Shown here: positions 6,167 through 13,125 of the stretch, one piece after another
Layout: every line of letters begins with the position of its first letter
How positions within the stretch are numbered: position 1 is the first letter of the stretch
Assembly (NCBI RefSeq): GCF_000025725.1
Contig: NC_013943.1
Span: 1,798,001-1,862,000, forward strand
Reading direction: 5' to 3'
Source: Denitrovibrio acetiphilus DSM 12809
Lineage (GTDB): Bacteria > Chrysiogenota > Deferribacteres > Deferribacterales > Geovibrionaceae
DNA: 64,000 nt
The notes under the pieces: model-generated
Databases searched by the model: none
Seen by the model: the letters and a program-made list of their open reading frames with translations, nothing else
What the model was told of the DNA's origin: nothing
Position numbers and translations under genes: made by a program

Positions 6167-7678
6167 TTAATTTGCACACTGGTCGGGGGTTTCGACTATT
6201 TTTATATACTTGGCGTACATATATCCGAATCTTCCCTGATATTTAGTTTTCCACCAGTTACCGTCCTCAGACAACTCATAAAGCTCTATATAAGCCTCAC
6301 TCGGAGCTGTACCCAGAAGTTCAGTGTTAACTGACGGACCGGATCTGATCTTAAGCCCACTATTGGCTGTTATACATCCGTGCTGAAAGGCAGGTTCTTC
6401 AGGCTGAGCTTCTTCTAATTCTGTATCTATTGCTGCATCATCTTCAGAAGTAGACGCAGTTATGTGCTCTGGTTCAGCCTTACTGTTGTCTGCCTGCGGC
6501 TCAGGCTCTATCTTCTCTTCAGGCTCAGAGGCTGCGGAAGGATTTTCTGATTGTAACTTCTGTTGAGCTAATTCATTATCGGCAGCAGATTTTTCAGTTT
6601 GGACAGACTCCTGCTGATCAGTAACTGGCTGTTCGGGGATTGTTTCCTGAACGACAGAACCTGACGAGTCGGACTCTGATACCTCCGGAGTATTTTCAGC
6701 AGCGGGTGCGTCTGCCTCCGAAGATTTCTTTTGTACCATTACCACTGAAAAGATGTCAGTTACCTGATTATCAAAAAAAGAAATAATTGTATCTCTGTAA
6801 AAGAGCCCTGCCCCTATGACAACCACTATTAGTGCTATCATTATCATGCCTTTGCCGCCAGACCGTCTGGACACTTTGACTCCATATAGCCTTGCTGCTG
6901 CCATTTTTATATGAGACGAAGTGATCTTAGCCTGTTTTCCCTCTTTGGCTATGGCAAGAGCCTTTTGGGCTATCCTGTTAATCTCAGAAGGGATACCTTT
7001 CGAGTAGTTATATATTTCAGTGTAGGAATTATTTTTAAAAAGGTGCTGATCATCGTCACCAATGGCGGTTTTGATACGGTGTTCAACATATTCTACTGTA
7101 TCGTGAAGATTAAGCGGAGCAAGCTCCACCGTAAAGGTAAACTTCGGCCCCAGGTCTCCGCCGATGTGCTTTAATCTATCGTGAAGTTCAGGGCATCCGG
7201 ATATGATCACCTGCACAAGCTTACATTTTTCAATTTCGATTTCCATAAACTTATTAAGCATTTGAAGACTTTCGTCAGAGATATTTTCAGCATTATCAAC
7301 AATAATAAGGTTATTCTTTCCTTCCTTATACTGATCAACAAAATACTCCATGATAAGCCCAAAAAGCTCCTGCCTGTCAGCTTCTTCAACCTCAAGTCCG
7401 AACCCTTTGCATATATCCAGCATCAGTTTATCTGTACTGGAGTCTTCATATCTGGTCATAGAAACATTACAGTCTTTTGCATTCTCTTTTAGGATTTTAC
7501 AGGTCATAGTTTTCCCTGTCCCTTTCAATCCTGTGAGAAGCATAAAGCCTTTACGGCTGTTCAGACCATATTCAAGCAGAGTAATCGCTTTATCATGGTG
7601 TATCGAAGAAAAAAAGTACTTGTTATCGGGATAAGCACTGAAGGGTTCGTCCTTCAACCCGAATAAGTCCCTGCTCAT
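6167..7678 (-). CDS. ExeA/GspA-type AAA ATPase with membrane segment and C-terminal SH3 domain
   Basis: A 503-residue protein. The N-terminal AAA module starts in the ExeA/MshM manner (LFGLKDEPFSAYPDNKYFF) with Walker A GLKGTGKT (50-57) and Walker B LIIVDNAENI (about 122-131). One transmembrane helix lies near 279-297. A long acidic, Pro/Glu/Ser-rich linker (about 310-425) leads to a bacterial SH3 domain (about 430-495). In ExeA a similar layout joins ATPase activity to peptidoglycan binding during secretin assembly; that role is an inference here because no secretin or pilus genes are in view. It lies 39 nt upstream of the SH3 lipoprotein gene. Confidence 0.85.
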   Translation of the reverse strand: MSRDLFGLKDEPFSAYPDNKYFFSSIHHDKAITLLEYGLNSRKGFMLLTGLKGTGKTMTCKILKENAKDCNVSMTRYEDSSTDKLMLDICKGFGLEVEEADRQELFGLIMEYFVDQYKEGKNNLIIVDNAENISDESLQMLNKFMEIEIEKCKLVQVIISGCPELHDRLKHIGGDLGPKFTFTVELAPLNLHDTVEYVEHRIKTAIGDDDQHLFKNNSYTEIYNYSKGIPSEINRIAQKALAIAKEGKQAKITSSHIKMAAARLYGVKVSRRSGGKGMIMIALIVVVIGAGLFYRDTIISFFDNQVTDIFSVVMVQKKSSEADAPAAENTPEVSESDSSGSVVQETIPEQPVTDQQESVQTEKSAADNELAQQKLQSENPSAASEPEEKIEPEPQADNSKAEPEHITASTSEDDAAIDTELEEAQPEEPAFQHGCITANSGLKIRSGPSVNTELLGTAPSEAYIELYELSEDGNWWKTKYQGRFGYMYAKYIKIVETPDQCAN

Positions 7679-7740: not shown

Positions 7741-8097
7741 CTACTTTTCTATTGTTGAAAATATTAAAACATCTTCTGCGGCAGTATCAATACTCTCGCG
7801 CTGCTTTCTAAGCGCTCTGGTCTGCACCACGCCTTTGTTTATATCTCTGCTAACAATGTATAATTCGGTCTCCTGATCAAAAACATTAGCCGGAAGCATA
7901 TCTATAGGATCTTTCATTGTAGCCACCATCTGAAATGTCTCCAGACCAAACGGAGCAATAATGTCAAACTCACCAAGGCTTATCCACTTGTTAACTTCAT
8001 CAGCATCAACATATCGTATAAATTTCCTGTTCCCCTGTACAGCATAAAAATCTATCAAATAGGAAAACCTTTCACTCTTTTTGTCAACATGCCCCAC
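7741..8097 (-). CDS. DUF4384-like C-terminal half of a split envelope protein
   Basis: A 118-codon open frame that would start at MGHVDKKS, but the same frame stays open upstream to the G tract at 8148-8157. Read from there it gives ESVELFAKINKPGYFFLVGH, the usual entry of a DUF4384 beta domain. So this is most likely the C-terminal half of the gene at 8138-9139, separated by a one-base length change in the tract. No good SD precedes the internal ATG. With 9 instead of 10 Gs the two halves fuse into one 465-residue protein (7741-9139). Confidence 0.6.
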   Translation of the reverse strand: MGHVDKKSERFSYLIDFYAVQGNRKFIRYVDADEVNKWISLGEFDIIAPFGLETFQMVATMKDPIDMLPANVFDQETELYIVSRDINKGVVQTRALRKQRESIDTAAEDVLIFSTIEK

Positions 8098-8137
8098 AAG
8101 GAAAAAGTATCCCGGCTTGTTGATTTTTGCGAAAAGC

Positions 8138-9139
8138 TCAACCGACTCCCCCCCCCCTGTAAAGCATAGCTTTCTTTCCGTTTGCTGTGGAGAGCCTAGC
8201 AGTAAAGCCGTCAGAACTGCTCAGCCCCATTTTCAAAAGCTTCTCAAAGCTGACAGATACAGGTTTGTAGTTAAGTCCGGCATATGCCTTCTCTTTCAGC
8301 TTCTTCACGCTGGTCCCCGCAACCAGACCGTTTCTGTCTGTAAGGGTAGCAGTTATGTATATGCTATTATCTGCCGCTACATATTCTGACTCAAGAAAGT
8401 AATCTGCACTTCGCAGTGAATCTGCGGTCTTCATGCCGGAACTGAGCATACCTTTGAAAACAGAAGCAAACTCTGTGACTTCTTCCGAAGTGTGATAAAC
8501 AGGATAATAAACATAGGTGTTAGCTTTACCAAGCTCGACAGATATAATATTTGCAGTGTGCTGCATACTGTCTGATGCATATGTGAGTTCATCTCTCATC
8601 CTCAACAGGCTTTCGTATGTAACATCAGGAAAACTTTTATAATCACCATTCAGAAGATATATTACAGATTTAAGCTTTTTGAAATTCTCAAACGCAGTCA
8701 CAGCAGCCATAGTCAACTTATATCTATCCGTATCAGACTCAGACTTAAGCAACTGTTGCTGAATAGAATTAATCACTTTAACAGATTGGTCAGCATTTTT
8801 GATATACACAGGGAGTGCTTTTGAAGCCTTAAGCACAACTTCGCATTTATGGTCTGCACCGTTTCGAGAGAAACTATACTCAGCTCCGAATATAGGCAGC
8901 ACACTTGTAATATCCACTTGCTTTTCAACAATCTGTTTTGCGTTTTGGATGTTATCACTCATATCTGTGTGAAGTTCTGTCCTAACATCAGTGTATAAAA
9001 TAAAAGACAACTCTGAAACTGCATTTGCTCTTGCCTCTGACTCTGAGCGCCCATACCCCTCAGCAAAATAGTCAAACGCAAAAGAATATGAAATGCTAAA
9101 AATTAAAAAAGATAAAATTAACAAAATCTTACTGTTCAT
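8138..9139 (-). CDS. LPP20-like exported protein, out-of-frame ON/OFF candidate
   Basis: 333 residues. A signal peptide (about 1-21, ending SYSFAFD) is followed by an LPP20-type domain (YFAEGYGRSESEARANAVSEL, typical of Campylobacterota and other envelope proteins), then a region of unknown fold. The last residues are RGGGVG and a stop created by the 10-G tract. The sense frame continues after the tract in the neighbouring open frame (7741-8097). The gene is therefore a frameshifted or phase-variable version of an LPP20+DUF4384 protein. Assembly or sequencing error in the homopolymer is the main alternative. Confidence 0.75.
   Translation of the reverse strand: MNSKILLILSFLIFSISYSFAFDYFAEGYGRSESEARANAVSELSFILYTDVRTELHTDMSDNIQNAKQIVEKQVDITSVLPIFGAEYSFSRNGADHKCEVVLKASKALPVYIKNADQSVKVINSIQQQLLKSESDTDRYKLTMAAVTAFENFKKLKSVIYLLNGDYKSFPDVTYESLLRMRDELTYASDSMQHTANIISVELGKANTYVYYPVYHTSEEVTEFASVFKGMLSSGMKTADSLRSADYFLESEYVAADNSIYITATLTDRNGLVAGTSVKKLKEKAYAGLNYKPVSVSFEKLLKMGLSSSDGFTARLSTANGKKAMLYRGGGVG
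8148..8157 (-). repeat. 10-G homopolymer tract inside a coding region
   Basis: Ten C on the plus strand, ten G on the coding strand. Ten Gs give Arg-Gly-Gly-Gly-Val-Gly-stop; nine Gs give Arg-Gly-Gly-Glu-Ser-Val and an open frame to 7741. Tracts of this length are known slipped-strand sites in other bacteria. Confidence 0.9.
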
Positions 9140-9174
9140 AAAGAAAATATAGCATGACTTGAAAAATGGGCAAT

Positions 9175-9205
9175 AAAAAAAGGTTCCCGCTACGAGAACC
9201 TTTTT
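9175..9205 (-). terminator. Rho-independent terminator, probably bidirectional
   Basis: Stem GGTTC/GAACC (9182-9186 with 9196-9200) extended by an A-run on one side pairing with a T-run on the other, with a 9-nt loop. It sits just after the HU gene on the minus strand and in front of the LPP20-like gene. Confidence 0.75.
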
Positions 9206-9233
9206 AAAGAAAAAACATTTCCAAATATTCTTC

Positions 9234-12683: not shown

Positions 12684-13112
12684 TTACTGAGCAATAGTAA
12701 ATTCTGAACAGTCACCTGAGAAAGTAGCGTGCTCATCAAGATCAGTGTTATGCCATTCACCCGCAATTGTTACATCATCCTCGTTGCCGCTCAGAGTGAT
12801 AACCACATACTCTGTATCATAAACAAAGCTGTATTTACCATCAGTATAGCCAAAAGAACCGCTTTCCACCTTCGAATAACCGGCATTAGTAGTTGTATAT
12901 TCATATGCGTCATTTTCAATTTCAAAACTGAAAGTCCCTGTTTTATCACCCTGTAAACTTCCGGAGCACACAACCATGTCTACTTTTAATCCGGTAACTA
13001 TATCATCTGAATCATTATCAGCATGATCACCGGCTAAATAGTCGTCGTCACCGCCACAGGATATTAAAAAAACTGACATGCACAAAACAATTAGCAGAAA
13101 GATATTTCTCAT
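12684..13112 (-). CDS. Small lipoprotein of unknown function, 10-G ribosome-binding site
   Basis: 142 residues from the ATG at 13112, chosen because it opens directly on a lipoprotein signal (RNIFLLIVLCMSVFLISC, Cys19). An upstream in-frame ATG would place Gly-Gly-Gly from the G tract in front of the signal and is less likely. The mature part starts GGDDDY with an Asp-rich segment and then a small beta-rich domain (SLQGDKTGTFSFEIENDAYEYTTTN, YVVITLSGNEDDVTIAGEW) ending in FSGDCSEFTIAQ. No family recognised. The ten Gs end 3 nt before the ATG and can pair with the anti-SD. Confidence 0.7.
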   Translation of the reverse strand: MRNIFLLIVLCMSVFLISCGGDDDYLAGDHADNDSDDIVTGLKVDMVVCSGSLQGDKTGTFSFEIENDAYEYTTTNAGYSKVESGSFGYTDGKYSFVYDTEYVVITLSGNEDDVTIAGEWHNTDLDEHATFSGDCSEFTIAQ

Positions 13113-13115
13113 ATT

Positions 13116-13125
13116 CCCCCCCCCC
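13116..13125 (-). repeat. 10-G homopolymer tract in the lipoprotein leader
   Basis: Ten G on the minus strand, immediately followed by AAT and the start codon at 13112. It is the only SD-like sequence of the gene. Changes in tract length would alter SD spacing and also the frame relation to an upstream ATG at 13127. Confidence 0.9.

Follow-up and report, generated by a model that had tools for sequence, protein, structure and literature searches.

Two open reading frames (ORFs) on the minus strand of the 64-kb window of the Denitrovibrio acetiphilus DSM 12809 genome (the whole stretch of 64,000 nucleotides analysed here, to whose numbering the coordinates refer unless noted otherwise) are a single gene split at a tract of ten G residues. 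In the best explanation, to which we give a probability of roughly 45%, the tract is an incidental slippage-prone G run that was caught one base out of frame in the sequenced culture. Read directly from the sequence, the minus strand at 8157–8148 is ATGCTTTACA-G10-AGTCGGTTGAGC (C10 on the plus strand). The 333-aa ORF from 9139 to 8138 meets its stop six residues into the tract-shifted frame (...MLYRGGGVG*), whereas the alternative frame, which reads SVELFAKINKPGYFFLVGH...ILIFSTIEK, passes the tract and stays open as far as the stop at 7741 (Table 1). The initial annotation of this DNA had placed the tract, the end of the ORF six residues on, and the open frame to 7741 correctly.

Table 1 Coordinates of the split gene, its G10 tract, and adjacent putative signals in the window.
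Feature	Coordinates	Strand	Remarks
5′ part of split gene	8138..9139	-	333-aa ORF; signal-peptide-like N terminus, LPP20-type and LpoB/FlgO-like domains; final six residues out of frame
G10 homopolymer	8148..8157	-	One base longer than the corresponding stretch in congeneric orthologues
3′ part of gene, shifted frame	7741..8145	-	C-terminal DUF4384-type beta-sandwich; stop codon position conserved in orthologues
Putative promoter TTGCCC-16-TATATT, TG before second hexamer	9140..9173	-	Consensus match; ca. 0.5 expected by chance in the region; abuts the ATG
Terminator-like inverted repeat AAAAAAGGTTC..GAACCTTTTT	9178..9206		Lies between the split gene and the HU gene; noted by direct inspection of the sequence

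We searched 51 genomes of the phylum (one genome per species) and found homologues in 22 of them, D. acetiphilus itself included. Both congeners carry an uninterrupted 466-residue gene without the tract. When the DNA was aligned with these two orthologues, the window contained exactly one extra base, located at the tract, and the flanks and the stop codon were collinear. In the register of the orthologues, the gene is open on both sides of G10, and a change in tract length would alter the reading frame. The earlier claim that one fewer G would give a full-length protein was thus borne out, since the congeners have exactly one base fewer. It had also been proposed to check whether the ORF is intact with nine Gs in relatives; the ORF is intact in both congeners and collinear downstream, but there is no tract in either. 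No G/C run of at least 6 bases was found in the two congeneric genes, and among the remaining homologues of the phylum such runs were limited to G8 in an incomplete homologue (L025) and 6-base runs in a distant one (L078). A contig scan for further D. acetiphilus strains found none; the matches were Denitrovibrio sp. MAG BM701, a contig of which is matched by the gene of one congener, a Desulforapulum MAG, and a Vibrio hannami homologue.

The region 3′ of the tract showed dN values of 0.17 and 0.21 to the two congeners, compared with 0.165 between the congeners themselves (synonymous sites were saturated), and contained no second stop or frameshift. Judged from these comparisons, the gene has not decayed 3′ of the tract and appears still constrained there; the lesion must accordingly be of recent origin, be reversible, or not exist. 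This absence of decay cannot tell slippage from sequencing error. It does argue against a fixed recent loss, in which the truncated gene would be permanent in the strain and en route to a pseudogene, as does the length of G10, which is unlikely to stay fixed. We consider such a loss very unlikely, even though the gene is patchy in the family (two sister genera, with four genomes, and one genome of a third gave no match), 70 pseudogenes are annotated in the D. acetiphilus genome (PMC3035293), and an independently frameshifted copy occurs in another genus. This latter homologue (L011:1480-2600), which belongs to a different genus of the same family, ends at 348 residues at an A8 run in the same C-terminal domain, and its other frame runs on to the usual end. 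The truncation of L011 may be accidental, erroneous, or a sign that the domain tends to be lost.

To describe the product, we used an alignment of 14 sequences and a structure model built for an uninterrupted congeneric protein (mean pLDDT, 85.8). The fragments in the window had no match in Pfam, and NCBIfam gave nothing useful for the homologues. Weak Pfam matches to LPP20 (PF02169) were obtained for nine of the 14 aligned members (best, 5e-5), and residues 22–95 of the alignment profile matched the Helicobacter pylori LPP20 protein HP1454 (PDB 4kzs) at E = 3e-6. DUF4384 (PF14326) was matched weakly by 11 of the 14 members at E up to 1 (best, 2.6e-5), and the two best matches that were checked scored 24.7 and 24.1 bits, below the 27-bit cut-off. 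The LPP20 and DUF4384 names in the initial annotation are therefore backed by the homologues through weak matches. In the model, an alpha/beta domain at the N terminus is followed by a helical stretch, a further domain (residues 191–284), and a C-terminal Ig-like beta-sandwich (ca. 308–466). The top structural match of the domain at 191–284 was LpoB (Z 9.4, rmsd 2.7 Å, 91 aligned residues, 13% identity), and FlgO gave one weak match among the homologues. Foldseek matches to histidine kinases, arrestin, and complement were set aside because they cover helices or generic sandwiches. The N terminus appears to carry an export signal, and these comparisons support the assignment of the product as an exported LPP20/DUF4384-type envelope protein.

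G10 lies at about codon 327–328 of about 465, late in the gene and just inside the sandwich; therefore, the 333-residue product lacks most of the C-terminal domain, and the lesion causes truncation, not silencing. The frameshift removes about 135 residues, which is most of the DUF4384 domain. The gene had been described as OFF in the sequenced clone, a view that is not supported, because a tract at this position deletes the C-terminal domain rather than switching expression.

In the 64-kb window, no G/C run between 6 and 10 bases was found. Across the D. acetiphilus genome (a single contig of 3,222,077 bp), G/C runs of at least 7, 8, 9, 10, and 11 bases numbered 111, 20, 5, 3, and 1, respectively, a near-geometric decay without a bimodal or excess class of long tracts. 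For runs of at least 10 bases, 0.5–0.6 were expected under Markov orders 1, 2, and 4 and about 3 under order 3, against 3 observed (Poisson P of ca. 0.02 and ca. 0.6, respectively). The G10 tract is locally striking and represents at most a weak excess genome-wide. A rare-codon argument for selection on the tract was rejected: GGG accounts for 24% of Gly codons in the window, and AGG-GGG-GGG has P of ca. 0.01 per Arg-Gly-Gly. Since GGG is an ordinary codon, AGG-GGG-GGG requires no special selection. As far as MutS is concerned, mismatch-repair loss was likewise set aside as a cause, since the gene is present and full-length (open frame, 857 residues).

Runs of 8 or more bases numbered 20 in total. 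Of these, 16 fall in intact frames, one lies upstream of an Rrf2-type gene, another at the start of a lipoprotein gene, and a third between genes, and the last breaks a gene; none was located in a promoter spacer. Among the 17 coding tracts of 8–11 bases, G10 at 8148–8157 is the sole out-of-frame case. The longest run is a C11 on the coding strand (G000:C1:3167687-3167697; L047), which encodes a Pro run just past the membrane anchor of a divergent polysaccharide deacetylase and is in frame. The run near the Rrf2-type regulator is a G9 (G000:C1:248563-248571; L029:1500-1508) that lies 7 nt 5′ of the ATG, at the would-be ribosome-binding site. A second G10 run is present in the window itself at 13116–13125 on the minus strand, immediately 5′ of the ATG of a 143-residue lipoprotein (12684–13115) that has a single weak match elsewhere in the phylum (G022).

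An evolved phase-variable switch, in which selection would maintain the tract and subpopulations would make the full-length or the truncated protein (C-terminal, translational variation), was weighed against these data. The base and length of the tract match those of known contingency tracts, the protein is probably exported, and late poly-G tracts of at least 10 bases have been proposed for C-terminal switching in Helicobacter canadensis (PMC2823697); the A8 truncation of L011 in the same domain and the second G10 at a lipoprotein start 5 kb away are also in line with it. However, both congeners and all other homologues are without the tract, which itself lies late in the gene, MutS is present, and no bimodal tract class exists in the genome, unlike the Mucispirillum-like genome described below. 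We consider an evolved switch improbable. Because the run is unique to the species and the genome has no genome-wide switch system, incidental slippage or a miscall is likelier. From the phase-variable ON/OFF switch proposed in the initial annotation, the split gene and the one-base difference stand, and the contingency locus is not supported, given the tract-free congeners, the missing bimodal class, and the presence of MutS. A stronger version, that a free-living Deferribacterota species swaps an envelope protein with and without its DUF4384 domain via the late poly-G, perhaps in concert with the second G10 at the lipoprotein start, is somewhat less probable still. A point against incidental slippage is that the genome has three runs of 10 or more bases, its longest, and that two of these lie within about 5 kb of each other (8148 and 13116).

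Ten bases is about as long a run as 454 sequencing reads with accuracy, and such runs are where pyrosequencing is at its weakest. The D. acetiphilus DSM 12809 reference (CP001968) combines 454 reads at 27.5x with Sanger reads at 7.8x, with a stated error rate of less than 1 in 100,000 (PMC3035293). A homopolymer miscall, with an intact gene in the chromosome and a tenth G that arose as an error in the 454/Sanger consensus, is therefore a live rival that ranks next after incidental slippage, although we judge it unlikely. Short-read polishing was not reported for this assembly (PMC3035293), and the intact gene of both congeners, the lack of decay beyond the tract, and the fact that G10 is the only one of the 17 coding tracts out of frame are what a miscall would leave. 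On the other hand, every other coding tract of this assembly, whether of 8 or 9 bases or the C11, is in frame (16/16), so the assembly does not generally err at such runs; the Sanger coverage and the stated error rate also speak against a miscall. Incidental slippage would imply a real tenth base and cell-to-cell variation in tract length.

Under the preferred explanation of incidental slippage, substitutions on the D. acetiphilus lineage would have made a short codon stretch into an unbroken G run long enough for slippage. In the sequenced culture, the run would have put the gene out of frame by one base, so that the product stops at 333 residues and is without most of the C-terminal domain. 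Such a change would be of recent date and could in principle revert, so that the gene may switch passively back and forth between the full-length and the truncated form at the slippage rate, and the tract would be an incidental mutational hotspot outside any evolved phase-variation system. Slippage on long homopolymers is established in general. It could also act at the expression level, where slippage of RNA polymerase or the ribosome on the G run would yield some full-length protein so that both forms are always present; the conserved downstream frame would suit this bypass, but the orthologues produce the protein without slippage, and we regard it as the least probable of the alternatives, with hardly any weight.

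The TATATT hexamer of the putative promoter lies 5–7 nt before the ATG and is conserved in three species (window 9140–9151; same place in L007 and L008). A conserved TATATT so near the ATG would mean a leaderless mRNA. A scan of the sequence did not report the inverted repeat at 9178..9206. The downstream neighbour on the same strand (6167–7678) encodes an AAA ATPase with a C-terminal SH3 domain; it is compatible with an envelope setting, with no link proven.

Within the phylum, a Mucispirillum-like genome (G040; 2,347,083 bp; 31% GC in the stretches examined), which is probably Mucispirillum, served as a positive control. The whole genome (L112-L149) has 54 G/C runs of at least 7 bases, 43 of them of at least 9 bases (33, 8, and 2 of length 9, 10, and 11, respectively) versus 11 of length 7–8. 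This bimodal pattern is the one expected of contingency loci, and D. acetiphilus is without it. Seven of the 43 runs (L117:2033, L126:2054, L128:2055, L136:1967, L139:2010, L142:2026, and L143:1977) lie inside the spacers of promoters with at least 11 of 12 consensus bases, whereas ca. 0.06 were expected. Promoter-spacer runs were also found in L086 (G029), L103 (G044), and L074 (G047). These runs consist of 9–13 C or G within the 14–19 nt spacer of near-consensus TTGACA/TATAAT (sigma-70) promoters, often 5′ of lipoprotein-like genes; in G040, the runs of L128, L139, L142, and L143 precede lipoprotein-like ORFs. Many of the G040 runs are intragenic without closing the reading frame. The excess recurs in G043 and G044, with 34 and 31 runs of 9 or more bases, respectively; G029 has 65 such runs and G032 has 18. 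On sequence grounds, the promoter-spacer runs are strong candidates for transcriptional phase variation in Mucispirillum-like Deferribacterota. The main text of the Mucispirillum genome paper makes no mention of phase variation (PMC5285517), and no papers on phase variation in Mucispirillum were found in the literature searched. The remark in the initial annotation that contingency loci are poorly described in Deferribacteres-like lineages agrees with this search, the lineage that shows them being Mucispirillum-like and not Denitrovibrio.

If the tract length varies, D. acetiphilus would be a natural replication-slippage reporter in a MutS-bearing, non-host-associated anaerobe, and the C-terminal domain of the gene could be lost and then regained; if the tenth G is a miscall, the annotation needs correction. 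The larger point is the contrast within one phylum between apparently gut-associated genomes, in which G/C tracts run to dozens and in part occupy promoter spacers upstream of lipoprotein genes, and a free-living genome without them. This contrast allows a direct test of whether host association and contingency loci are linked, and the Mucispirillum-like tracts are a more interesting finding than the D. acetiphilus G10.

The D. acetiphilus protein resembles HP1454 of H. pylori in its N-terminal LPP20 domain (4kzs, E = 3e-6), but is longer and adds the middle LpoB/FlgO-like and C-terminal DUF4384 domains. The modelled fold of residues 191–284 is similar to the LpoB C-terminal domain (Z 9.4); at 13% identity, however, neither peptidoglycan synthase activation nor a flagellar-ring role is implied. 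As in the contingency loci of Campylobacter and Neisseria, a G homopolymer of switch-competent length is found in a gene for an apparently exported protein. Unlike those loci, the tract is away from the 5′ end and the promoter, is not common to congeners, and occurs in a MutS-bearing genome without a genome-wide tract class. In Helicobacter canadensis, eight genes with late poly-G tracts whose copy number varies between reads have been reported (Snyder et al. 2010, PMC2823697). The D. acetiphilus gene shares with these a coding-region poly-G of at least 10 bases at which a tract change alters the C terminus and does not stop expression (PMC2823697). In contrast to the eight genes of H. canadensis, in which mostly a few residues are changed, D. 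acetiphilus has one isolated tract, known from a single reference, at which about 135 residues are lost.
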